Part shown: positions 10,691-34,581 of the stretch, in pieces
How positions within the stretch are numbered: the first letter of the stretch is position 1
Layout of the letters: each line of letters starts with the position of its first letter
NCBI GenBank assembly: GCA_028282505.1
Contig: JANQHV010000368.1
Coordinates: 1 to 37,701, forward strand
Direction: 5' to 3'
DNA length: 37,701 nucleotides
Source of the DNA: SAR324 cluster bacterium
GTDB taxonomy: Bacteria > SAR324 > NAC60-12
Notes under the pieces: generated by a model
What the model was told of the DNA's origin: nothing
What the model saw: only the letters and a program-made list of their open reading frames with translations
Databases searched by the model: none
Made by a program: the position numbers and the translations under genes

Positions 10691-11362
10691 ATGTCAACAA
10701 CTTTAGCATTTGATGTATATGGAACTCTGATCAATACTCATGGTGTGACAGTGGCTCTGAAAGATTATGTGGGAGAACGAGCTGATGATTTTTCTCGTTT
10801 GTGGAGGGAAAAGCAGTTGGAATATTCGTTTCGCCGTGGCTTGATGCAAAATTACCAGCAATTTTCAGTTTGCACCCGTCAGGCTTTGGATTATGCCTGT
10901 CTTTTTTATAAAGTGTCGCTTACAGAAGAGCACAAGCAACGCTTGATGCAGGAGTATCGTGTGTTACCAGCCTTTCAGGATGTCAAAGATGGGCTGACAC
11001 GGGCTCAAGAAGCAGGCTTCCGTATGTTTGCCTTTTCCAATGGCAGCACCGATGCTGTGGAAATGTTGCTGCAAACCGCAGCAATCCGCCATTATTTCGA
11101 AGGGGTGGTCAGTGTCGATTCTCTAAAAACTTTCAAACCCAGTCCAGCCGTCTATTGTCATTTTCTGAGAAGCACGGGTTCGTTGGGAGCTGAAGCCTGG
11201 ATGATTTCCAGCAATCCTTTTGATGTCATTGGTGCTGTTTCTGCTGGAATGAGAGCTGCTTGGATCCAACGCTCACCCGAAATGATTTTTGATCCCTGGG
11301 AAATACAACCCACCCTGACCCTGGAGAGTCTCACTCATTTAGCAGAGCAGATCAAACAGTAG
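10691..11362 (+). CDS. Haloacid dehalogenase type II-like HAD hydrolase
   Basis: HAD motifs LAFDVYGTLINT, FAFSNGS, KTFKPSPAVY, WMISSNPFDVIGAVSAGMRAAWIQR. Confidence 0.88.
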   Translation: MSTTLAFDVYGTLINTHGVTVALKDYVGERADDFSRLWREKQLEYSFRRGLMQNYQQFSVCTRQALDYACLFYKVSLTEEHKQRLMQEYRVLPAFQDVKDGLTRAQEAGFRMFAFSNGSTDAVEMLLQTAAIRHYFEGVVSVDSLKTFKPSPAVYCHFLRSTGSLGAEAWMISSNPFDVIGAVSAGMRAAWIQRSPEMIFDPWEIQPTLTLESLTHLAEQIKQ

Positions 11363-13811
11363 TGTCGTCACCTTCCTTGTGGAGTTTTGTCTTGCTTTGA
11401 AGAAAATGAAGGCAAGCCTGAGTATTTTGGTTGAACCACCCTGAAAGGTTAAAATGATTATTGAGGATCAAAAATAAGTTTTGGTAAAAATAAGCGGAGT
11501 TCTTACCGTTCACCTTGACGGGATAGAAGGGGACTGGTTTGTTGGCCACTTTCAATTCCTGAGGAATATTCTTCAACAGGGCTTTGGTTTGATAGGTTTG
11601 TTTGACACTCTTTTTTAAATAATCGGCATAAGGGTGCTCACTCTTATTAAGGAAACTTTGTAATACCGTCAGATACGGCAGATGGTATTTATACTCAATG
11701 TCACATTTTAGTGGAAATCTATTGATAAAGGACTGGTCATATCCAAATAAAACAGGAACCAAACCAATACAAATGATCACATCAACCAGAGGATTGGACT
11801 TATATTTTGTAATAAAGCACGCATGCTCTTCAAATAATTGAAATTCACGCCCTTCATTTTTGGATATGGCATTCACTCGAAAGCCAAGCTCCTTCTTGCG
11901 CAATTCTGTGAATAATTGAGTAAAACATAGTTGGAATTGAGCGAGAATCTCAAAGTCTTGATCAAAAAAATCAAAAACTTCCTGATATTCATCCGTAAAT
12001 TTGATCAAACGGTATTTAGTCACCGGATGTTTTTGTTGAATATAATATTTTTCCTGCACATTAATCGGTGTCAAATATTTCAGAAGAGACCGATCTTGTT
12101 GGATCGTTTCGGCATGTTGGGCCTCGATCATTTTTTTATTACTTTTTTCTTCAGTCACACGCATTATTTTTCTGGCTTCAATCTTTTTATAAACCTGGTT
12201 GATGTCAGGGTTTTTTATGGAAAACACACCAGATTTGACCATATCCACAAACCAATTCTCTGCAAATTCACTGATATTTTCCGATTGAATCACAGATTTT
12301 AAGACTTTCAGATTGGCCAATGCTTCAGAGTGACTGGGGGAAGGCGGGATTTTTGCCAACTGTTGGATATAATCCAATGTCAATTGCACGTTCTTCATGA
12401 CCCTGGTTAATGTGGAAGGAGACAACAAAAATAAATCTTCTTTCACAACATTGCTCTCCATTTGAAATTCCGTATCATCGATCAATTTTTTGATAGAGGG
12501 CGTATCCATTTGAGGATTTTTATAGATATAGGCCAAAATAATTTTTTTATAGATTCTTAGATGACCCGCATCTTCTTCATTGAAGATGATCTGACAAATG
12601 TTTTCAATGAGATATTCCCATTTGTATTTTGAAAATGAATAAATCCCACGATGAAGCTGAAGTGCCTGATAAATTTTTACGATGAGAACCAATCGTTCTT
12701 GTTTATCCGTAATAATCTGATTGGTCAGATGTTTTCTATTATCAGATGACAGAATGGCCATCAAAATATATTCCTGTTCTTGTTCTAGATCCAGACCGTG
12801 GTGCTCTGCCTGGCGTTTGATGAAATCACTGTTGAATAATTTCAAATAAAATTTTGAAATTTCTTTTCGAAATAGAAAAATGTCGCCGATTAATCGAGAA
12901 TCCTTAAAAGAAGCAATCATATTCTCAATTTTTTCATGGAGTTCTTTATAATAATTAGAAAGTTGGAATATAAACGCAATGGCTACCTTATCCTGTTTTC
13001 GAATTTGCTGCATGAGAATTTGTATAAACTTGGTAAAATCCGAAAATTGTTCAAAATATCCCAACTCTTCTGTGATGAAGTATTTTTTTTCGTTCTCAAA
13101 TTGTCTGAAATTTTTGTAAGTATTGACGATAATAGCCGTAAGCTCTTTATTCAAGTCACCACGCTTGTGGGCAGACACAAGAATTTTCTTTAATTGATCC
13201 ACTTCAATATCCGCATATTCAGCAATCAATTGCTTGAGGGGTTTATTAGGACGCTCTATAATTTCGCGCAGGGAAAAATCCAGGATTTTTTCAGAAATCA
13301 GATGACCTAAATGGCTTTCATCGGATAACCATTCCTCCGTTTTCACTGGAGAGTGGCTGGCTGCTTTTTCTTCTGGTGAAGAATCTGAGAGAATGGCCTC
13401 CAACATACCTTTCAATTGGAGATACTCTTCGAAATACCAATGAACGATGCTGGTGGTTGTTTGTATTGCCAGCTCAGAATCTTCTCCCGTTAACTCATCT
13501 TCTTCTTGATAGTGGGCTCCTTCATTGGCAATATCTTTGACAAAGTGCAATTTTTTGATAATGATTGACGGTGCGGCTTTGTTTGCCTTCAATTTGTTAA
13601 TAATGCTGGCCAGGCCTCCTTTTTTTGGTATGTTTTGTCCTTTGATTTCTTTTTTGTGGATGGTGGTACAAATGTTTTCTATCAAACGACGACAATGAAC
13701 AACGGCCCCAGAAGGATTCTCATAACAAATTTTCTTTGCCTGGATATATTCATTTTTGATGAAAAGAATGTCTTTGTTGATTTTATTATCAGGATGAAAC
13801 TGGCTTTCCAT
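11352..13811 (-). CDS. Large DUF4145-like-domain protein of unknown function
   Basis: N-terminal region (AKKICYENPSGAVVHCRRLIENICTTIHKKEIKG...LHFVKDIANEGAHY) has DUF4145/HEPN-like layout; the rest is unassigned. ATG at 13811 preferred over the TTG at 13862. 3' end overlaps the convergent HAD gene. Confidence 0.6.
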   Translation of the reverse strand: MESQFHPDNKINKDILFIKNEYIQAKKICYENPSGAVVHCRRLIENICTTIHKKEIKGQNIPKKGGLASIINKLKANKAAPSIIIKKLHFVKDIANEGAHYQEEDELTGEDSELAIQTTTSIVHWYFEEYLQLKGMLEAILSDSSPEEKAASHSPVKTEEWLSDESHLGHLISEKILDFSLREIIERPNKPLKQLIAEYADIEVDQLKKILVSAHKRGDLNKELTAIIVNTYKNFRQFENEKKYFITEELGYFEQFSDFTKFIQILMQQIRKQDKVAIAFIFQLSNYYKELHEKIENMIASFKDSRLIGDIFLFRKEISKFYLKLFNSDFIKRQAEHHGLDLEQEQEYILMAILSSDNRKHLTNQIITDKQERLVLIVKIYQALQLHRGIYSFSKYKWEYLIENICQIIFNEEDAGHLRIYKKIILAYIYKNPQMDTPSIKKLIDDTEFQMESNVVKEDLFLLSPSTLTRVMKNVQLTLDYIQQLAKIPPSPSHSEALANLKVLKSVIQSENISEFAENWFVDMVKSGVFSIKNPDINQVYKKIEARKIMRVTEEKSNKKMIEAQHAETIQQDRSLLKYLTPINVQEKYYIQQKHPVTKYRLIKFTDEYQEVFDFFDQDFEILAQFQLCFTQLFTELRKKELGFRVNAISKNEGREFQLFEEHACFITKYKSNPLVDVIICIGLVPVLFGYDQSFINRFPLKCDIEYKYHLPYLTVLQSFLNKSEHPYADYLKKSVKQTYQTKALLKNIPQELKVANKPVPFYPVKVNGKNSAYFYQNLFLILNNHFNLSGWFNQNTQACLHFLQSKTKLHKEGDDTTV

Positions 13812-13950
13812 ACTCTTTTTAGATCCAATGATTCTATAGTGCTCAAGAAAAGTTTTTTCCAAATGATCTTGTTTTTGCTGTACAACTCGTTCCAGCTCGC
13901 AACTGGAGTTTTGGAAATGGGATTTGAGAAGTGAGAGATGATTTCAACAG

Positions 13951-14373: not shown

Positions 14374-16443
14374 ATGGCATTAAAGATTAAATACCACTTT
14401 GTTCCTGATGGCAATATTGCAGCTCTTGAACATTTGGCACCCGATGTATTTTATGTGGGAGTCGGTTCCATCCATCATCCCCAGGTGTTCGATCACCATG
14501 CGGGTCAGGCAGGCACCGACACGACCCCTGCCGCTTTGATCTGGGATGCACGAAAACAGCTATATGAAAGTGCAAAATCGTTAGAATCGCTTACCATTTA
14601 TACCCATCGTAATCCTCAATGGAGTGCTTGTTGGGGCATCATCCTGCTGGAATGGATTCTGAATGGACAGGAATTGGAAGAAACCAAAATAACGGCACTG
14701 AATACTTACAGCAGTTTTGTTTTATCCGGATATAATCCTTCGGAAGGCCCGGTCGAGCAGTCACTCATTGCCGTCTATTCCAGTGTCATGTCAGAGATTG
14801 AAGAAAAAGAACGGGATTTCGATGTTCGTGATTTAAAAAAAATCCAAACGGCTTATCAATTCTTTTCGTTTTGTTATCAGCAATTCCAAGATTACTCTGA
14901 CCTCAAAACAGGGCATTTTTTTAGAGATGACGGCCCTTATGGAAAAGCCAAACTGCATATCCGTGAAGACCATCAAGTTTACTTAAGAGACCTCCAAAAA
15001 GGTTTTCGATTCACAGCATTATTGGAACACCGAACTGGAGAAAAATTGCGGATTGATGGGCTTAAAATTGAAAAACCCTTGTCTCGACTATTCAAGTTTT
15101 GGGCTCGTAATGATCGTGAACATAGTTTTTCGAAAGCAGGATTTCCACTTACCTGGGTCCAGTGGGAACCCAACAACTGGGTGCTGACCGTCAATCCCAC
15201 CAGTGGATATCACTTAAAAGGGCTGGGAGAGTTTCTTACCAGAGAAGAACATAGAATGATTGCTCCCCCCCTCGATATGCTAAACCGTGAAGGGTATGAT
15301 AGCCCCAACCCCTGGTATGATGCCCGTAACTCCCCAGGAGAATTTACCATTGTGGCTAGTCCTCATGGAGGGACTCAAATGTCCCCCAGGCAAATTGAAA
15401 AATTATTGCGCAGATGGTTCAAAGTGCGACACTGGCAATCGGCTAAGACCAAACCGACCTGGTGGAAAAACAATTTTGCTTACTTCAGTGTTGCAGCCTC
15501 TCTGATTTTGTTAGCTGGAACCCTGTATTTGCTCTATCCCAATTTAACTGAGCTGGAGTGTGATAGGCGCAGAGGTCTTCCAGAACTCCAAGTCAGTCAA
15601 GGAAAGCACTATGCCATTGTCATTGGCATCAATGACTACAGTCAATCTGAAATGGAAGATGGGAATCCCTGGGATAATTTAAACAATCCTGCGAGAGATG
15701 CCATTAGGATCATGTGGTTTTTGGAAAACAAATTTCATTTTGAGCCTGTGCAACCAGGAGGAAGCCTCTTGATGGTTAACGGAGCAACTCATCTCAGGCT
15801 CTCTAAAAGTATTCAAAATTGGTTTGAAACGGTTAGCCACACATTAGATCAAACAAGGTTCTCTCCCTCTCTGGGCAATATCAATGTGCAAATTCAAAAA
15901 CTGGCCGAGTCCTTGACCGATCAGGACTCCTTATTGATTTATTTTGCGGGGCATGGTTCCATGTCGAAATCATTGGGCACGTGGATTCCATCAGATTTCA
16001 AGCCTGGGGAAGATATTTCATACGACCGGATTGAAGGCATCTTAAAACGGAGCGATGCCCGGCATATTTTGGTTGTGGCTGATTCCTGCTACTCTGGAAA
16101 ATTTCTGGAAGAAGACATCATGCGCGGAACCGAGGACTATGGAGATACTACAGCCGATGAAAACACCAAAGCCTTGTATCAATTGTTTTCCAGGCAGGGC
16201 CTGACTGCAGGATTTTTAGAACCTGTCTCTGATGGAAAGCGAGGGGAACACAGTCCATTTGCAGGATGTTTCCTAAGATCACTGCGGAAAAGCAAGGAAT
16301 TCCTCTCAGCTCACGCCCTTTTCATTCAAATCAACCAATGTATGCAAAAACAAAGCTCTGTGCAAAAAGTCCTATTTTCTCCCAAAAAAGATTTATGTGA
16401 CCAGGGAGGAGAATTTATCTTCCGAAAACGAAGTTTATTCTAA
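14374..16443 (+). CDS. DHH-phosphoesterase-like N-terminal region + single TM + caspase-like (peptidase C14) protein
   Basis: C-terminal caspase fold motifs: start KHYAIVIGINDY (from 15604), LLIYFAGHG (His codon 15952-15954), ILVVADSCYSG (Cys codon 16087-16089). TM-like YFSVAASLILLAGTLYLLYPN at 15481-15543. N-terminus has 'VFYVGVGSIHHPQVFDHHAGQ', resembling a DHH motif. Confidence 0.85.
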   Translation: MALKIKYHFVPDGNIAALEHLAPDVFYVGVGSIHHPQVFDHHAGQAGTDTTPAALIWDARKQLYESAKSLESLTIYTHRNPQWSACWGIILLEWILNGQELEETKITALNTYSSFVLSGYNPSEGPVEQSLIAVYSSVMSEIEEKERDFDVRDLKKIQTAYQFFSFCYQQFQDYSDLKTGHFFRDDGPYGKAKLHIREDHQVYLRDLQKGFRFTALLEHRTGEKLRIDGLKIEKPLSRLFKFWARNDREHSFSKAGFPLTWVQWEPNNWVLTVNPTSGYHLKGLGEFLTREEHRMIAPPLDMLNREGYDSPNPWYDARNSPGEFTIVASPHGGTQMSPRQIEKLLRRWFKVRHWQSAKTKPTWWKNNFAYFSVAASLILLAGTLYLLYPNLTELECDRRRGLPELQVSQGKHYAIVIGINDYSQSEMEDGNPWDNLNNPARDAIRIMWFLENKFHFEPVQPGGSLLMVNGATHLRLSKSIQNWFETVSHTLDQTRFSPSLGNINVQIQKLAESLTDQDSLLIYFAGHGSMSKSLGTWIPSDFKPGEDISYDRIEGILKRSDARHILVVADSCYSGKFLEEDIMRGTEDYGDTTADENTKALYQLFSRQGLTAGFLEPVSDGKRGEHSPFAGCFLRSLRKSKEFLSAHALFIQINQCMQKQSSVQKVLFSPKKDLCDQGGEFIFRKRSLF

Positions 16444-16446
16444 TCA

Positions 16447-16510
16447 AAAAAAGGGGACAGATTTATTTTTAAATCTTTTAACTTTAAAAAATAAACCTGT
16501 CCCCTTTTTT
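16447..16510. repeat. Long palindromic (REP/REPIN-like) hairpin
   Basis: AAAAAAGGGGACAGATTTATTTTT ... AAAAAATAAACCTGTCCCCTTTTTT: arms complementary over about 24 bp with one internal mismatch, about 15-nt loop, ending in a T run; sits 3 nt after the caspase stop codon. Confidence 0.92.
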
Positions 16511-16592
16511 AGTAAACACTTGACGAAAGAGTTATCTTATAATAGAGTAACCAATATGGTTCTATTTTGGTTCTTCATGCAAGGAGATCGTT

Positions 16593-16832
16593 ATGCCTAC
16601 CATCACACTGAAAAATATTCCAGAGCAGCTTCATAGAAAACTTAAGCAAAATGCTTCTCACAATCATCGTAGCCTCAACAACGAAATTATTGCTTGTCTT
16701 GAAAGCTCAGTCCATGCCTCTCCGATAAACAGTGAACTACTGTTAGCACGTGCTCGTACGCTCCGCAGCCAAATTTCAGGGCACTTGACAGAAGAAACTC
16801 TTGCTGATTTCAAAAATCAAGGACGGCTATGA
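16593..16832 (+). CDS. VapB/FitA-like ribbon-helix-helix antitoxin
   Basis: MPTITLKNIPEQLHRKLKQNASHNHRSLNNEIIACLE resembles Arc/FitA RHH antitoxins; stop overlaps the PIN gene start. Confidence 0.85.
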   Translation: MPTITLKNIPEQLHRKLKQNASHNHRSLNNEIIACLESSVHASPINSELLLARARTLRSQISGHLTEETLADFKNQGRL

Positions 16833-17239
16833 TCGTTGTTGATACAAATGTAATTGCCTACTTTTGGATTCCTGGAAGTTATACCCAAGAGGCAGAAAAA
16901 GTTTTTCAAATTGACCCCGAATGGAAAGTTCCGTTATTGTGGAAGTCTGAGTTACGTAATGTTTTAATCAACTATATCCGGCATGAGTATTTGACATTAG
17001 ATGTTGCCATACAAGTCATGTCCGATGCGGAAGCACAATTGAAGCTACATGAATTTTCCGTCACTTCTACAGATGTTCTTCGCTTTTCAAGTCAATCAAA
17101 GTGTGCCGCCTATGATTGTGAATTTGTTGCTTTAGCAAAAGATTTACAGGTCTCTTTAGTCACAACAGATAAAAAAATTTTATCAGAATTTCCAGATGTC
17201 GCCATTTCAATGTCACGTTATATTGCCCAAAACAAGTGA
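16829..17239 (+). CDS. PIN domain toxin (VapC-like)
   Basis: MIVVDTNVIAYFW, ELRNVL, YDCEFVALAKDLQVSLVTTDKKIL: PIN acidic motifs; ATGA overlap with the antitoxin. Confidence 0.88.
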   Translation: MIVVDTNVIAYFWIPGSYTQEAEKVFQIDPEWKVPLLWKSELRNVLINYIRHEYLTLDVAIQVMSDAEAQLKLHEFSVTSTDVLRFSSQSKCAAYDCEFVALAKDLQVSLVTTDKKILSEFPDVAISMSRYIAQNK

Positions 17240-17342
17240 GGCTGGTAACTACAACAACAAAGGAGACTTGTCTTGAAATCCTACTATTAATGACGAATGG
17301 ACATTAATCGATACGCTCGGATATGAAAACCTGATTATACAG

Positions 17343-18680
17343 GTGCTCAATATTATTGAGAATGCGACACCGCCTTTCACTATCGCTGTTTATGGGGGAT
17401 GGGGAACCGGCAAAACCAGTATCATGAAGCAACTGTTTTTCAGAGCAGGAGGACAGATTTCTTCCGTTCTCTTGCCATTTTCGGAAAGTCCCGATAACGA
17501 ACAACTGGAAGCAGCAACACTGGAGAAAATCAAGACACTCCGCAAAGCACACACACCAGAACTGGTAGCCGTTTGGTTCAACCCCTGGGAGCATCAATTT
17601 GAAGACGAACCCATCATTGGGCTCTTGCATGAAATTCGGGAAAATTTTAATTTATTTTCCAAAGTCGAAGAAGAGGCCAAAAAACTCGCCGAAGTCACCG
17701 TCAGGAGTGGCCTTGATATTCTATCCAGTATCATCAGCAACTTGAAAAAAATAAAGATCGACCCCGGTAAAATTGAAAAACATGGCGAAAATTACGAAGA
17801 GAAGCATTTTCAAATCAAGAGTTCTTCTCAACGCTTCCGTCTGCTATTTGAAAAGGCCATTGGCAAATTGATCGGCAAAGACCGTAAGGCATTGGTCATC
17901 TTCATTGACGACCTGGACCGCTGTTCGGATCAAAATGTCATCAGACTGATTGAAGGCATCAAACTTTATTTTTCAACGTCCAATTGCATTTTTGTTTTTG
18001 GCATGGATCAATACAATGTGCTGAGAACCCTGGAAAAATTCAACATTCATAAAGATTATCTGGACAAACTCTTCCAATGTGTCATCCGGGTACCTTTGAG
18101 CAAAAATTATGAAAAATTCATTGATGGCATTATCCAGGAGTATTTTGAAGATGTGGGGGCCAATGAACTGGTGCCCGTACTCTCAGACATTTTAGAAAAG
18201 AATCCAAGAAAAGTGAAAAACTTCCTCAATTCGTTCAGAGCTTACTGGGACATGTGGAAACAAGAGGAAGCAAAGCAAAAAACCGGGGATTTAAAAATTG
18301 AAATTTTTGCTTTGTTCCATTTGTTGAGAATCCACTTCGAACCAATTTTTACCATCTTGGAAAGAAATCCAGAGTATGTTCACAATTTGGCAAATGTGTG
18401 CAAAAATAATGCTCCTGACCAAAAAGTCGAACACATGTTTCAAAAATATTTGAAAAACCCCATTACCGAACAAATCACGGTAAATACTGAATCTGAAACT
18501 CAAATTATCTTACCTGATAAACTGGATAAAGAAGAATTGGAGTATATGGAAGATATCTCGTTTAAATACGAAGCTCTGGAAAAATTCAAAGAACGCTTTG
18601 TCCAATATTATGAAGACGATCCAGCACAGTTTTCTCCCGAAACCGTCAGCATCTACCTGGGAGTGATTGAAAGCGATTGA
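17343..18680 (+). CDS. KAP family P-loop NTPase (coding similarity extends upstream to about 17277)
   Basis: Walker A YGGWGTGKTS, Walker B ALVIFIDDLDRC, 'IRLIEGIKLYFSTSNCIFVFGMDQ', 'NPRKVKNFLNSF' typical of KAP NTPases. Confidence 0.88.
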   Translation: MLNIIENATPPFTIAVYGGWGTGKTSIMKQLFFRAGGQISSVLLPFSESPDNEQLEAATLEKIKTLRKAHTPELVAVWFNPWEHQFEDEPIIGLLHEIRENFNLFSKVEEEAKKLAEVTVRSGLDILSSIISNLKKIKIDPGKIEKHGENYEEKHFQIKSSSQRFRLLFEKAIGKLIGKDRKALVIFIDDLDRCSDQNVIRLIEGIKLYFSTSNCIFVFGMDQYNVLRTLEKFNIHKDYLDKLFQCVIRVPLSKNYEKFIDGIIQEYFEDVGANELVPVLSDILEKNPRKVKNFLNSFRAYWDMWKQEEAKQKTGDLKIEIFALFHLLRIHFEPIFTILERNPEYVHNLANVCKNNAPDQKVEHMFQKYLKNPITEQITVNTESETQIILPDKLDKEELEYMEDISFKYEALEKFKERFVQYYEDDPAQFSPETVSIYLGVIESD

Positions 18681-18682
18681 AC

Positions 18683-21595
18683 ATGAATCAAGTCCTGCAA
18701 CCTGGTTTTAAAGAAACCACAGAACAACAACAATTTCGTCAAACGTATATGGATAAAATCCATGCGATCTATCAGTTTGATGAATCTCTGGGAATTATGG
18801 ATTTGGGGCAGGATAAAAAGATCTCCCTGCAGGACATTTACGTTCCTCTCCGCTTTGCCCAACAGGAATTAAGCGAAACGAGGGATTGGGATATTGAAGG
18901 AGATACGCTTTCTCTGCTGAATATCCTGGAGCGTTCAAGACATATCGTTTTATCAGGGAGGCCCGGCAGTGGAAAAACCACTCTTTCCAGAATGATGATC
19001 AACTTGCTTTCATCAAGAGCCTTAACGGCGTTAGCGGAAAAATGCGGCAGGCGGTTGCCTCTATACTTCAAATTACGGGATTATCAAATCAGTCATCTTG
19101 TTTCGGCAGAGGAATTGTTCGAAGCGTTTATAACGTCCCAGGGACGAACACTGGGACTTGCCCTTTCACGGGAACACCTGGAATTTTATCTGAAGCAAGG
19201 CTGGTGCTTTCTGATTTTTGATGGTGTGGATGAAGTAGGAGGATTGAAAAACCGTCTAAAAATTAGGGAGTTTGTCCTGAAGTATTTCACCCGTTTTCAC
19301 TCCGAAAACTACATTATCGTTACCAGTCGCCCTTCTGGACTGGAGAATGTCCCTTTCAGCAGTTATCTCAATGAAAAAGAACAACACGAGTCTCTGCATT
19401 TATTAACCTCCTTTTATACCGACTCCTTCAACAAATCCCAGGCTCGGGAATTCAGCCAGAAGTGGTTCACTTTGCGGGAAGAAAATCCAGAAATTGTCAA
19501 AAAGAAGAGCAATGAATTTCTAGAATCTATCGAACAGATCAAAAGCCTTTCTGTCTTGAGACGACGGCCCGTTTTTTTAACCATGATGGCTCATATCCAC
19601 ACTACAAAAGGCAAATTACCACATTCACGAGCAGCTGCTTACGAATATATGGTAGAAGCATATATCGAAAATATTGACATCACCCGCAGACTGCATAAGG
19701 ACCTTTATCCTGAGGAACACTATCATGAATGGAGTTTTGAGGATAAAATTAAACTCTTGCAGGGGATTGCCTACAAATTTCAATTAACTGGAAGCTCCGA
19801 CAAAAAAAAGAACGATGAGGAATCTCTGATTGTTGTGAACCGGGAGGAATTGTTATCGATCATCAAAGCTATTATTGAAGAAAACAAAGAAAGCTGGCAA
19901 ACGATTCTTCCTGGGCATGCTGAGTCTCTTCTTGGATTTTATTTGACCCGTACTGGACTGCTGCATGAACCGGAAGACAACAAAGTCCAGTTTTCCCATT
20001 TGAGCTTTCAGGAATATCTGACCGCCCGTTTTATTTACAGAAAAGTCATTGACAACTATTTCAGCGCACTTGCTATTATTAAAGATGAAATCATGAGCAG
20101 GCTAACAGAAAAAATGTATGGCCGCTGGAGCGAGGTCATTTTGCTCTTTTTCAGTCTCAGCAAAGCCACAACAAACGATACGTTACGTGCCATTCAACAG
20201 GAATTGAAAGCTGATGAAGCAAAACATCAAGAGCGGATTGGTAACTTCCACAGGCTAGTGCTAACTATGTTGGATTCAGAAGAATACGGAATTAAAGAAT
20301 CAAACATGCCTTATTGGGTCGAACAGGTTTTTGAATATATGGTTAGGTTGGATATGAATAATCCAAGAAATGAGGGCCGAGCTTCTGTAAACAAAGGTTT
20401 TGTTTTGATTCAGACCTATTTCGGTTCAACAGAACGCTCTTGCAAAATTCAGCTTGCCGAAAAGACGCTGAATGAATTATTTGACAGCTATTTCCAAGCT
20501 ATTCAGCAAGATAATCACAATACTGACGCTATCAAAGGCCTGGAAAATACTATTTATGCGATTACTTACGATGCCAGAGTAGCGAATCAATTTAAGGCAA
20601 AAGCAAAAGAAGCATTACCAGTGATATTGGATAGAAATTTCTTTGATTTCCAGTTTATTGCATGTGCGGAACTTTTGACTTTTTATTTTAATGAGTTTTC
20701 TCAAACAGTGGCTGATACCTATACAATTGATGAAGCAATCATTTGCAAGCATTTAATGAGTTTTTCTATTTTTAAGGAATTTTCAAAAAAAGAGAGAAAG
20801 GACAATTGGAAGCTTCAAATAGCGGAATGGGCATGGCTAGTTGAAAAATGGTTTGTATTTTCGTTGTTAAATCATCTTTATTTTGCACATAGTCAAGCAA
20901 ATCTAAAAGAGCTATCTAAAATTAACAAGAACAGTTTATTAGAATTATTTAATGCAGAGATAAGCAATTTTTACAAGCGGAACTGGTTTTTAAATATTTG
21001 GCATGGATATCCTGGTGGCTTCGAGTGTGCAGAACAAAAAGTATGTGGCCTCGAACGTTTTAGAGCAATTTCCATACTCGTCTCTAAATCTCTTTTCACA
21101 GAGACAGGTGGTCGTCTTACAGAATATGCAACTCCAATATCCACCAAGGCAAGGAAGGTCACAGAGTTTTATAGTGGATATCGAGGAATAGAAGCAGGAG
21201 ATTCACCTGACTGGTTGAAAATACTACTCTCTTCTTTATTATTGGCTGATGCTGATATCAAATTTGAACAGGAGTATCGAAAACTTCCAATTCCCTGGCA
21301 AACGTATCATGAGTTTGAAGAATTTAATCATTTGATCAGCCAGCCTGAGTCATTGTATGATTACTTGTTGGAAAACTGTGAAGAAATCATTGATAAAACT
21401 GAGTTTTTAAAGCAGTATCGTGAGTATGATCAAAAGCCCTATGCCATGAGCAAGATGGTCAAAGAAATTCTGGACAGAGGTGAGCAGTATTATCCGACTT
21501 TTTCCAATGAAGAGGCGATGGAATTGAGCATAAAATTATTGAATGAATTTTGTGAAAAAGAAGCAGAATCGTTGAGGAGTCAAGAAAAGCTTTAG
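18683..21595 (+). CDS. NACHT-domain STAND NTPase with long C-terminal helical region
   Basis: Walker A VLSGRPGSGKTTLSR, Walker B WCFLIFDGVDEVGG, YIIVTSRPSG, 'VQFSHLSFQEYLTARFI'. ATG 2 nt after the KAP stop (TTG at 18677 also possible). Confidence 0.88.
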   Translation: MNQVLQPGFKETTEQQQFRQTYMDKIHAIYQFDESLGIMDLGQDKKISLQDIYVPLRFAQQELSETRDWDIEGDTLSLLNILERSRHIVLSGRPGSGKTTLSRMMINLLSSRALTALAEKCGRRLPLYFKLRDYQISHLVSAEELFEAFITSQGRTLGLALSREHLEFYLKQGWCFLIFDGVDEVGGLKNRLKIREFVLKYFTRFHSENYIIVTSRPSGLENVPFSSYLNEKEQHESLHLLTSFYTDSFNKSQAREFSQKWFTLREENPEIVKKKSNEFLESIEQIKSLSVLRRRPVFLTMMAHIHTTKGKLPHSRAAAYEYMVEAYIENIDITRRLHKDLYPEEHYHEWSFEDKIKLLQGIAYKFQLTGSSDKKKNDEESLIVVNREELLSIIKAIIEENKESWQTILPGHAESLLGFYLTRTGLLHEPEDNKVQFSHLSFQEYLTARFIYRKVIDNYFSALAIIKDEIMSRLTEKMYGRWSEVILLFFSLSKATTNDTLRAIQQELKADEAKHQERIGNFHRLVLTMLDSEEYGIKESNMPYWVEQVFEYMVRLDMNNPRNEGRASVNKGFVLIQTYFGSTERSCKIQLAEKTLNELFDSYFQAIQQDNHNTDAIKGLENTIYAITYDARVANQFKAKAKEALPVILDRNFFDFQFIACAELLTFYFNEFSQTVADTYTIDEAIICKHLMSFSIFKEFSKKERKDNWKLQIAEWAWLVEKWFVFSLLNHLYFAHSQANLKELSKINKNSLLELFNAEISNFYKRNWFLNIWHGYPGGFECAEQKVCGLERFRAISILVSKSLFTETGGRLTEYATPISTKARKVTEFYSGYRGIEAGDSPDWLKILLSSLLLADADIKFEQEYRKLPIPWQTYHEFEEFNHLISQPESLYDYLLENCEEIIDKTEFLKQYREYDQKPYAMSKMVKEILDRGEQYYPTFSNEEAMELSIKLLNEFCEKEAESLRSQEKL

Positions 21596-21778: not shown

Positions 21779-22216
21779 GTGAAGGTATATCTTGATAATT
21801 GTTGTTTAAATCGACCTTTTGATGACCAAACAAATTTAAGAATCCATCTTGAATCAGAGGCAATTAAGGTGATATTTCTTTCATGTGAACAGGGGCATTG
21901 GGATTTAATCATCAGTGTCGTCAGTAAATATGAAGTTGCCAATACACCTGACAATGCCAGAAGAAAACAACTAGAGTTGATGATTGAAATAGCCGATGAT
22001 ATGATTGAAATTAATGAGAATATTGAGAAAAGAGCAAAACAGTTTGAAATTTCAACTGGAATGAAAGCGTTTGATGCATTGCATCTTGCTTGTGCCGAAA
22101 CAAAAGCTGATGTATTTTTAACAGTCGATGATCAGTTTTTGAAAAAAGCTCGATCAATAGAAAACTTGAATGTACAAGTCGAAAATCCATTGAAATGGGC
22201 GGAGAAGGTACTTTAA
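21779..22216 (+). CDS. PIN domain protein (putative toxin)
   Basis: MKVYLDNCCLNRPFDDQ, SKYEVANT, MKAFDALHLACAETKADVFLTVDDQFL: PIN motifs. Confidence 0.85.
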   Translation: MKVYLDNCCLNRPFDDQTNLRIHLESEAIKVIFLSCEQGHWDLIISVVSKYEVANTPDNARRKQLELMIEIADDMIEINENIEKRAKQFEISTGMKAFDALHLACAETKADVFLTVDDQFLKKARSIENLNVQVENPLKWAEKVL

Positions 22217-22419
22217 TGCAAACAGTTCAAAATAAAAGTGATCATCAGATAAAATTATTAGGATATCAGATTCTAAAAAACGAGTTAGGAATAAGTGGCC
22301 TGATTCGTTTTATGCAACAGTTTGATACAGGACATGGAAATTATGTCAAGGATCGTGAAGAATGGCAAAAAGAGTATGATGTAGATTCTCTCGTAACAGC
22401 GATTAATGACTTGAAGTAA
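22216..22419 (+). CDS. Small protein paired with PIN toxin (putative antitoxin)
   Basis: ATG overlaps the PIN stop (TAATG); 67 aa, charged; cognate partner inferred from overlap. Confidence 0.65.
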   Translation: MQTVQNKSDHQIKLLGYQILKNELGISGLIRFMQQFDTGHGNYVKDREEWQKEYDVDSLVTAINDLK

Positions 22420-29796: not shown

Positions 29797-32700
29797 TTAA
29801 GAACAGCCACTGGTTGCCCCACAAGACACACATTTGAGGCAAGAACCATTACGGACCATTGTGAATTGCCAACAACTGGTACAGCACTCGCCTTCGTACC
29901 CTTTCAACCGGGCTTCCTGCATTCTGTCCTGCTGAGAAAGTTCCAAGGACCAGTCATCATCGGCTTCTCCCAGAGAAGAGGTAGAGAGTTGTGCACTCAC
30001 TCCAGAACCATGTGATTTTTCAGCCAGTGCCGGGATATTCATTTCGGGAACATGCTGATCGTTTTCTTGGTTGGAATGGCCGGCTCCCTGATGCGGTGTC
30101 AAATTGTTCAGCGTTCGCTCTGCTACTACTTCTTCTTCCTCATACTCTGGCTCGGTTTCTTTACGAGAATGCAATTCGCTGATATGTAGATCTTCCGGTT
30201 TGACATGGGCTAGATCATTACGCTCCAGATAGTTGATGGCCAATTCACGGAAAATATAGTCAATAATCGAGGTACTCATTTTGATGGCATTGTGGCCCGA
30301 AACCATCCCATTGGGCTCAAAGCGGGTGAAGACGAAGGCTTCTACATACTCTTCCAGTGGCACGCCATGCTGAAGTCCCAAGGAAATAGCAATGGCAAAG
30401 GAGTTCATGATACTACGGAATGCGGCTCCTTCTTTGTGCATATCCAGAAAAATTTCGCCCAATGTTCCATCGGTATACTCGCCGGTACGCAGGTAGACTT
30501 TGTGTCCTCCAATAATGGCTTTTTGTGTATACCCTTTACGACGGTCTGGTAAGCGGCGACGCTTTGCGATATAGCGATGAATGATTCGCTCGGCTATTTG
30601 GATTTCCCTGGCTTGCTCTTGTTCTTCTTCCACAATTTCTTCTTCCTCCCAAACCGAGTCATCGATACTGGTATTGAGAGGTTGGCTCAGCTTACTCCCA
30701 TCCCGATACAGTGCATTGCATTTCAAACCCAGCTTCCAGGACGATAAATAGGCATCCTGGATATCCGAAATAGAAGCATGTTGAGGAAGGTTGATGGTTT
30801 TAGAAATGGAACCTGAAATAAAAGGTTGGGCTGCTCCCATCATATGAATGTGGGCTTGGGGAGGAATAAAGCGTTTGCCTTTTTTACCACACTTATTGGC
30901 GCAATCAAAGACAGCATAGTGTTCCTTCTTCAGGTGAGGTGCTCCTTCTACCGTCATGGTGCCACAAATGTAATCATTGGCGGCTTCAATCTCATTCTCC
31001 GAAAACCCCAATGCTCTCAAAATACTGAAATTAAAATCATTGAGCTGCTCTTCTGTCAGGCCAAGGGTATTTTTGCAAAACTCTTCTCCTAAAATCCATT
31101 TATTGAAGACAAAGGAAATATCGAAAGCCGATGTCAGTTGTTCTTCTATGCGTCCCAGCACCTCTTCTGAGAATCCCTTTTGCCTTAAAGATTCGGTGTT
31201 AATGCAGGGACTCCCCTGCAATGTTCCACGCCCTTTGACATAGTGCACAATGTCTTCCTGTTGGGATTCTTCGTACCCCAGTTTTTTTAAGGCAGGCGGA
31301 ATAGATTGGTTGATGATTTTGAAGTATCCCCCTCCAGCCAGTTTTTTGAACTTCACCAAGGCAAAGTCTGGCTCGATTCCTGTTGTATCACAATCCATCA
31401 ACAATCCAATGGTTCCTGTGGGTGCAATGACGGTCACCTGTGCATTACGAAATCCATGCTTCTCTCCCAATCGCAGAGCTCTGTCAGCATCTTCCTGGGC
31501 AGCCTTCAGTAAATCAGGAGGACAGTGCTGACTATCAATACCCATTGGACTAATGGACAGACCTTCATACTCGGTATTAGGCTCGCGATAGGCCGCACGT
31601 CGGTGATTCCTAATCACTCGTAGCATGTGTTCTTGATTATTGGAATATTCAGGAAAGGGTTCCAATTCTTTGGCCATTTCTGCTGAGGTGGAATAGGAGG
31701 TCATGTGCATGATGGCCGTAATCGCACCACAGATTGACGTTGCTTTTTCTGAATCATAAGGAATGCCCGATGTCATCAAGTACGTGCCCAGATTGGCATA
31801 GCCCAGCCCCAAAGTCCGGAATTGATAAGACAGTTCGGCAATCCGTTTACTGGGAAATTGTGCCATCAAAACACTAATTTCCAAGGCAATTGTCCACAGA
31901 CGTACCGCATGTCGAAAGCTTTTCACATCAAAGCGCTTGGTTTGAGGATCTTGAAATTTCATCAAATTCAATGATGCCAGGTTGCAGGCGGTGTCATCCA
32001 GGAACATGTACTCTGAGCAGTTGTGCACCGCAATGCCATTAGCTGTAAAATGATGAGTATGAGGTTCAGTGAGGTCAAAGACTGCTTCTTCTCCCAGGTA
32101 CGTAAGGGAGTCCACCTTGTCTGTCAGGGGATCACTGTAGGTGCCAATGGTTTCATTCAGTTGATGGAGGGCTTTTGCTTTTGGGGTATTGGGAATAAAA
32201 CCGATATAGCGTTCAAATAAAATTCGAGATTGACGACTGATGCGCAAACTATGCATTTCCTGCACATGGTATTCTTTGATACCTCCCTTACCATCAGGCA
32301 ATAGGGCTTTTGATTCTCCAGCCCGACGATTTTTATAGCATTTGGATTTGATTCCAAAGTTTAACAACAACATCTGCACTTGTTCCAACAAATGCAAAGA
32401 TGTCGAATCGAGAGCAACATATTGAGATTTTTCTCCATAATTGGCGACGGTACCATCTGCTGTGAATAATCCTCGTAACAAAGCAGCTTGCTCCATGCGA
32501 TTCAACAAAAAAGCATAGGAAGTGAGCTGTTTACCTGCACTTCCCTGATCCAAAATGGCAAATGTTGAGATTTTTTCTAAAATTTGAGGACTACCAACTG
32601 TCGTACGGTAGGTTGTCGGTGTGGTAACAACCTGACTCGGTTTATTATGTTCTCCCATTTCTGGACGTAACTGGTTGATCACATCATTAGCCCAGGAAAC

Positions 32701-34581
32701 GATAGCTTCCTCTTCTTTTCCCATTGTCAAATGGGCAGCACGACGGATGTTTCCAGCAGCATCTTCTTCATTTAAAGAGGTGAGACAACCATCTCCCAGC
32801 AACAATCCGATTAACTGAGCAACATCCTGACTTCCTGTTGATTCGGCCCCAAATGTTCCTGGAATTAAACGCACCACATCATCTTTGCTCAATTCACATG
32901 CAGGAACATCTCCACGATTTTCAGTAAACACTTGATGATCTGCTGTGAGCTTAACCTTGTAACCACTTTTGCACGACAGTTCATAAACAGGTTTCACTCC
33001 TGTAGGAAAAATTTTTTCAACTGGATATAAATTCCCATCTAAACTTTTAATTTTACGTGTTTGTCCTACTAAATGGCCAATGCACTCCAATCCATTTTCT
33101 GTGGTAATCAGTGTATCTGCGGTGACACAAGGATTAGAAGCTCGGATGGGACCGGCTTCGGGGCAGGTGTGCCATTCATTGATGGTTGTGTCAAACTGCA
33201 ATCCAGGATCGGCTGAAGACCAGGCACTGTAAGCAATTTGCTCCCAAAGATCAGCAGCCTTGAGAGTTTTACACGGTCTGGGATGTCGTCCCTCCTTCTC
33301 AGCTGTTGCTTTTTCTGTCCTCCAGTACAGATTCCAATCCTGACCTTTTTGCAAGGCTTCCATGAATTCATTACTGATCCGAACAGAATTATTGGCATTT
33401 TGTCCAGAAACCGTCGCATAGGCTTCTGAATTCCAGTCGGTATCATATTCGTCAAACTCAATGCCGGTATAACCCTGCCGGGCCAACTCAATGATGCGCT
33501 CCACATAACTGGGAGGTATTTGATTTTGATAAGCACGCTGAATCACACGGCGCAGGTTTTTATTTTTCTTACGATCAAATTTTTCTTCTCCGCCGTCCCA
33601 ACCATGAATGGCTTCAAACAACGCATTTAAAATCGTGCGAATCGTTTTAGATCCCGTCACCAAAGCGGCAACTTTTTGTTCTTCTCGGACTTTCCAACTA
33701 ACAAATTGTTCAATATCGGGATGATCCAGGTCCAGACACACCATTTTTGCGGCACGACGGGTGGTGCCCCCTGATTTGATAGCACCTGCGGCCGTATCTC
33801 CAATTTTCAAAAAAGACATCAAGCCTGAGGAAACACCTCCTCCTGAAAGAGGCTCATTGCCACCCCGTAAACTGGAGAAGTTGGTTCCTGTGCCAGAACC
33901 ATACTTGAACAAACGTGCTTCTCGAGTCCACAGGTCCATGATTCCACCATCCTGTACCAGATCATCCTTAACGGATTGAATAAAACACGCATGAGGTTGC
34001 GGATGGGTGTAGGCATCGGTCGATTCGGTCATTTGTTTTGTGTCCGGATCAATATAATAATGTCCCTGGGATGGTCCAGAAATGCCATAGGCCCAGCCCA
34101 AGCCAGTGTTGAACCATTGAGGAGAGTTGGGAGCAGCGACTTGATTGGCCAACATTGCACACATTTCATCATAAAACGCTTTTGCGTCTTTTTCTGAGTC
34201 AAAATATCCATATTTATGACCCCAGTACGTCCAACAACCAGCAAGGCGGTGAAATACCTGACGGGCATCGGTTTCTACCGTGGTTTGTTCTGCAGGAGGC
34301 AGAGTGGATAACTTGGCTTGGTCTGCCGTAGAGGACTGCAACCAGGAAGGAATATTTTTTTCTCTTGTCGATTTTAAATGTTTAGGAATTCCTGCTTTAC
34401 GAAAATACTTTTGTGCCATAATATCAGTGGCAACCTGTGACCAGTTTTTCGGAACAACCACTTCCTTCCATTCAAACACAACAGAGCCATCTGGATTGCG
34501 AATGACAGAAGAAGAAGTAGTGAACTCGATGGATTCATAGGGATCTTTACCTTCCCTGGTGTAAAGGCGGTCAATTTTCAT
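29797..34581 (-). CDS. nrdJ: Adenosylcobalamin-dependent (class II) ribonucleoside-diphosphate reductase containing an intein
   Basis: Class II RNR signatures ([56 protein letters not shown] split by the intein, [37 protein letters not shown]), C-terminal Cys-rich CTSCW...CLKCVSCG. Confidence 0.92.
32020..33129 (-). mobile_element. Intein (370 aa) with LAGLIDADG homing endonuclease, in nrdJ
   Basis: N-terminal Cys1 block '[13 protein letters not shown]', block B-like '[14 protein letters not shown]', LAGLIDADG motifs '[12 protein letters not shown]' and '[12 protein letters not shown]', C-terminal '[12 protein letters not shown]' followed by extein Cys+1 'CSEYMF'. Length 1110 nt, in frame. 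Confidence 0.93.

Follow-up and report, generated by a model that had tools for sequence, protein, structure and literature searches.

PifA, which excludes phage T7, and the PDC-S20 protein of PADLOC are single-gene KAP proteins, the models of which have no NACHT partner. A KAP ATPase has been named as a player in anti-phage immunity (PMC8195603), and QatA, also a KAP protein, assembles into 7-8-mers and binds DNA when purified (PMC13279940). Among NACHT NTPases, the bNACHT anti-phage proteins combine a central NACHT domain with a C-terminal part that is either helical or variable, and bNACHT02 and bNACHT12 of clade 14 have no discernible effector domain (PMC12169576). The bNACHT proteins are described as single-gene systems, with bNACHT25 also needing the host chaperone DnaJ. 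Caspases with a transmembrane segment (TM) are found in the caspase conflict systems, i.e. the VMAP ternary and the EACC1 two-gene systems (Kaur et al. 2020, PMC7159879).

The locus described here lies in a window, i.e. the whole stretch of DNA analysed, of 37,701 nucleotides and contains genes for a TM-caspase similar to those of the caspase conflict systems, a KAP P-loop NTPase with a KAP domain similar in size to those of PDC-S20 and PifA, and a NACHT NTPase with the anatomy of the bNACHT proteins. In contrast to the single-gene bNACHT systems, the NACHT gene is in all cases preceded by a KAP gene that overlaps or abuts it. Combining gene order with the recurrence of the two NTPase genes in other genomes, we consider it probable that KAP and NACHT (17273-21595) are translationally coupled and make up a two-gene, NLR-like conflict module with a likely anti-phage function, and that the upstream caspase is independent of it.

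The first-pass annotation could not assign the cluster to a named system, and this assessment stands: NCBIfam does not name the KAP-NACHT pair and PADLOC recognizes only the KAP domain, with best scores to PDC-S20, QatA and PifA that are domain-level only. QatA shares its KAP domain with the KAP protein of the window; membership in QatABCD was rejected at a QatA score of 77 bits versus a cut-off of 600, and no QatB, QatC or QatD is present among the window ORFs. Assignment of the NACHT protein to EruA was likewise rejected (NCBIfam score 23.6 versus a cut-off of 1000), and no EruA paper was found in the literature covered. For the caspase, the score to caspase_w_EACC1 is 49 bits versus a cut-off of 140; its neighbors are a DUF4145 gene and vapBC, and no MoxR, vWA, VMAP or EACC1 gene lies beside it. 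In the literature covered, which includes few subscription papers and is weak evidence on this point, KAP occasionally replaces STAND NTPases and no KAP-NACHT pair was found. We file the pair within the bacterial NLR-like systems rather than in a separate category.

Gene order and the stretch between caspase and KAP

The ORFs for caspase, KAP and NACHT are all present on the plus strand and their Pfam families are confirmed (Table 1). The first-pass annotation had KAP following the caspase gene in the same orientation. The shared strand holds; the direct succession does not, as a palindrome, a promoter-like site and a vapB-vapC pair lie in the 0.83-kb gap between the two genes.

Table 1. Coordinates of the features in the window
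Feature	Position	Strand	Remarks
836-aa protein	11352-13862	-	N-terminal DUF4145; divergent from caspase; no match in defence library
Caspase-family (C14) protein, 689 aa	14374-16443	+	DHH-like domain 1-360, TM 369-387, caspase 406-689; Peptidase_C14 (PF00656) E 9e-12, residues 412-661
Imperfect palindrome	16447-16510		27-nt inverted repeat, T-run; REP/BIME-like, also terminator-like
Promoter-like site	16520-16548	+	TTGACG-17-TAGAGT upstream of vapB; consensus match only
vapB-type antitoxin ORF, 79 aa	16593-16832	+	Weak NCBIfam match, TprA N-terminal region
vapC-type PIN-domain toxin ORF, 136 aa	16829-17239	+	PF01850 E 5e-6
KAP P-loop NTPase gene	17273-18680	+	Listed ORF 17343-18680 (GTG, 445 aa); frame open from 17277; KAP_NTPase (PF07693) E 7e-24
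NACHT NTPase gene, 972 aa	18677-21595	+	TTG start overlaps KAP stop by 4 nt; alternative ATG 18683; NACHT (PF05729) E 2e-10
Second, unrelated PIN-domain gene	21779-22216		3' of NACHT
Small ORF	about 22216-22416		Begins at stop codon of second PIN-domain gene; possibly another toxin-antitoxin (TA) pair
Ribonucleotide reductase-like ORF	29797-34581		Apparent intein (...AVHNC)

The palindrome is a member of a genome-wide repeat family: a 21-mer derived from it has 58 matches with at most two mismatches across the 7.57-Mb genome and the reversed control has none. The family is of the GGGGACAG type, and a gene in L049 (13633-14322) resembles a REP-associated transposase. Matches of the promoter-like kind are only slightly more frequent than expected from shuffled sequence and the site is, therefore, weak evidence for a promoter. 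Downstream of it, the PIN-domain toxin ORF follows the small antitoxin ORF with a 4-nt overlap, as is characteristic of VapBC. The palindrome together with the other features in the gap argues for a transcriptional and evolutionary boundary 3' of the caspase gene. We suggest that vapBC is a separate TA pair and that the predicted promoter may also supply KAP-NACHT.

Recurrence of the KAP-NACHT pair and distribution of the caspase

Searches for KAP in plasmids, in the contigs of 85,462 species and in genome sets identified seven loci besides the window in which KAP and NACHT of these subfamilies follow each other in this order. These are (i) an intact pair with overlapping ORFs in Ca. Magnetomicrobium (Nitrospirota; L063) and a second locus, also from Nitrospirota (L108), (ii) a plasmid of Ca. 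Magnetococcus massalia (L053), in which KAP is split by IS4 and NACHT is cut by IS1380, (iii) Ca. Venteria (L102), with a 1-nt overlap between KAP and NACHT, and two further members of the same order (L112 and L111), and (iv) a remnant from the window's own family (L048), in which the 5' part of KAP is joined to NACHT just before Walker B in what appears to be a deletion. A further KAP, cut short, is located at the end of a contig (L103/L067). No NACHT gene follows the full-length KAPs with poorer matches to the profile (E about 1e-36 and weaker) and, thus, adjacency to NACHT tracks the KAP subfamily. In the five complete pairs, a small sample, the pairwise identities of KAP and of NACHT correlate (Spearman 0.83), as expected under co-inheritance. 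That KAP and NACHT belong together as a unit is thus supported by the seven other loci and by the congruent divergence of both genes. Single-protein scans found no relatives of KAP in viral contigs and none of NACHT in genome contigs, and sequence searches of the PDB gave no match.

The identification of the second gene as a KAP NTPase is supported by Pfam, and its Walker A (GGWGTGKTS) and Walker B (IFIDDLDRC) motifs are intact; all five complete KAPs compared carry a GxWGxGKTS Walker A and a DDLDRC Walker B motif. An AF2 model of KAP had a pLDDT of 56, which is too poor for a fold search. The KAP homologues start with M..NDxWTL or nearly so (MGYLNDEWTL in L053, MDFFNDEYTL in L063, MQEKYHNDVWTL in L111 and RYFNDSWTL in L048), and the window encodes this conserved start motif as NDEWTL from position 17289, i.e. 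upstream of the listed GTG. The sole well-placed ribosome binding site and start codon, AAAGGAG and TTG 17273, are one base out of the KAP frame. TTG 17273 is likely the original KAP start, and the offset would reflect either an assembly error, a real lesion, or translation from GTG 17343 that leaves out the conserved N-terminus. Decayed copies are also found in Magnetococcus and in two other genomes (G031 and G757), and the window copy of KAP-NACHT, with its KAP start offset by one base, may be inactive.

The first-pass annotation placed the NACHT start two bases past the KAP stop, which is correct for the ATG; the alternative TTG overlaps the stop codon. Its observation that NACHT lacks an N-terminal effector is confirmed, with Walker A at residue 94 behind a linker of ~90 residues and no earlier domain. 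The relatives, with Walker A at residues 95-125, likewise have no N-terminal effector. Both Walker motifs of the window NACHT (GRPGSGKTT and LIFDGVDEV) are intact. In each locus where NACHT is full-length, similarity to this protein stops at residues ~450-557, so that residues 1-550 are conserved and residues 550-972, the putative sensor, are divergent. Such a combination of a constant switch and a divergent C-terminal region is what one would expect of a STAND sensor. The C-terminal half contains LRRs in L102, a 12-bp x 22 repeat array in L063 (11646-11913) and a 6-bp x 42 repeat array in L111 (7309-7559); in the window copy this half has no tandem repeats. The low-complexity arrays in L063, L111 and L048 encode RDLxRYL, SRSLS and RSLYRS in units of 6-12 bp, and such tandem arrays could change length quickly.

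The caspase is distributed differently. With a profile of 33 caspase domains, the window's own caspase is detected at E 3e-69 and no caspase is found at E<1 near any of the seven other KAP-NACHT loci (flanks of ~2.6-9 kb per side, with one locus ending at NACHT), a small sample that is still compatible with a substantial minority of loci with a caspase. Of the 52 genomes of the window's phylum, 17, the window's own among them, contain caspase relatives; traces of KAP-NACHT are limited to the window and G031, in which the trace is on another contig than the caspases. Conserved co-occurrence of the three genes was not found in the sequence covered: caspase relatives rarely neighbor KAP-NACHT, which is the outcome that the first-pass annotation named as refuting a three-gene system.

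Proposed working of the pair and alternatives

From the order, adjacency and recurrence of the two genes, the intact Walker motifs and the conserved and variable halves of NACHT, all of which are directly observed, we infer a scheme for sensing, oligomerization, activation of KAP in trans and defence itself: (i) the variable C-terminal half of NACHT would recognize a signal from the invader, (ii) NACHT would then oligomerize in an ATP-dependent manner, (iii) oligomerized NACHT would switch on the KAP NTPase in trans, with KAP being the effector or the motor of the effector, and (iv) the infected cell would stop growing or die. The role of KAP in this scheme follows from the combination of a NACHT protein without an effector domain and a constant KAP companion, and the choice of KAP as the effector is a guess. 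More specifically, we tentatively suggest that the two genes constitute an unnamed anti-phage pair working as a split NLR, in which an effector-less NACHT activates KAP in trans and exchangeable C-terminal sensors (LRR, low-complexity arrays or helical) are combined with a constant KAP. If true, a trans-acting effector arrangement would be added to bacterial NLR-like immunity and KAP NTPases, such as those of PifA and Qat defence, would gain a defined upstream sensor. The caspase would act independently of this pair, with a DHH-like domain in the cytoplasm, a single TM and the caspase domain on the outer face of the membrane.

The first-pass annotation instead proposed a three-gene system with NACHT as the sensor, KAP as a second NTPase module and the membrane caspase as an effector acting in trans through its protease domain. 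The three genes are near neighbors on the same strand, and links between caspases and NACHT are found in other bacterial conflict systems (PMC7159879), and a caspase-NACHT fusion occurs in Haliscomenobacter. However, finding these three genes close together in one window does not count as evidence for a joint system. The palindrome, the promoter-like site and vapBC separate the caspase from KAP, no caspase was found in the flanks covered of the seven other pairs, and 16 further genomes of the phylum contain relatives of the caspase, with a trace of KAP-NACHT in just one of them. Moreover, the net charge is +5 in the 20 residues preceding the TM of the caspase and -1 in the 20 residues following it, which by the positive-inside rule and a simple hydropathy estimate suggests that the caspase domain is outside the cytoplasm (periplasmic); in this predicted position it would be hard to reach for a cytosolic NACHT-KAP complex. 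Together, these data make a role of the caspase as trans-acting effector of the pair very unlikely, and we judge it to be an independent protein. Alternatively, the effector could be the PIN RNase, released or regulated by KAP-NACHT in a four-gene operon vapB-vapC-KAP-NACHT. In favor of such an operon, only 33 nt on the same strand separate the vapC stop from TTG 17273, a single promoter-like site is located upstream of all four genes, and certain ternary conflict systems have PIN RNases as effectors (PMC7159879). Nevertheless, according to the ORF listings the other KAP-NACHT loci have no vapBC-like pair directly upstream, and the unrelated PIN gene 3' of NACHT makes the TA genes look like local background. 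We, therefore, consider this model quite improbable.

Two further possibilities concern the function of the pair as such. The one-base offset between the TTG start and the KAP frame, and the relatives broken by IS elements or deletion, would fit a decaying, functionless remnant; yet 1,400 codons of KAP and NACHT are open with all Walker motifs intact, and in an assembly of 692 contigs the offset could be an artefact, or a start at GTG 17343 could bypass it, making this explanation rather unlikely. We also give little credence to the idea that KAP-NACHT serves regulation or maintenance instead of defence. Signal-dependent regulators are also found among STAND proteins, and the flanks of the KAP-NACHT loci are mostly ordinary genes, several of them housekeeping genes, with no defence-island or prophage setting seen for any of the eight loci; against this idea speak the rare and patchy distribution, the plasmid copy, the frequent decay and the known anti-phage members of both the KAP and the NACHT family. 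We, thus, favor the two-gene conflict module.

The DHH-like domain and the relatives of the caspase

The features that the first-pass annotation ascribed to the caspase are present, i.e. intact His/Cys motifs (GHG from residue 526 and, at 571, SCYSG of the DxCxSG type) and one central TM. Caspase relatives are plentiful in the window's phylum, with up to six per genome (G047), and many have signal-peptide-like N-termini. In a tree of caspase domains the window caspase is on a long branch and its position is unresolved and, for this reason, the exported nature of many relatives was not used as phylogenetic evidence.

Absent from the first-pass description is the N-terminal domain of ~360 residues (14374-15450 in the window), in which no Pfam model matched residues 1-360 and for which the AF2 model had a pLDDT of 39, too poor for a fold search. 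Three relatives of this domain were found: in G095 it is fused to TIR (L062, 7524-9107), in G393 to TCAD9 (L071 1-2544/L088), with genes for DUF4384 and a stand-alone caspase next in order, and in G045 to another region with C-terminal TMs (L047 7135-9687/L029). TIR and TCAD9 are accessory domains of the caspase conflict systems. All copies share the signature (N/D)PWYDxR...TIV...P..G. The copies in G095 and G393 resemble DHH phosphoesterases in having a DHH triplet and an HxxPDxD-like motif; the window copy has kept VFDHH, and its HxxPDxD-like motif, positioned after DHH, is degenerate (THRNPQWSA). In classical DHH proteins the two motifs are in the opposite order, and the likeness is one of motifs only. 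That the N-terminal domain travels with other partners counts against an effector role of the caspase for KAP-NACHT. Its location beside a caspase gene in G393 and its fusion to the caspase in the window suggest that the functional partnership of the caspase lies with this domain. Found in fusions with caspase, TIR and TCAD9 and lacking a Pfam model, the DHH-like domain is a candidate for a new sensor or adaptor domain.
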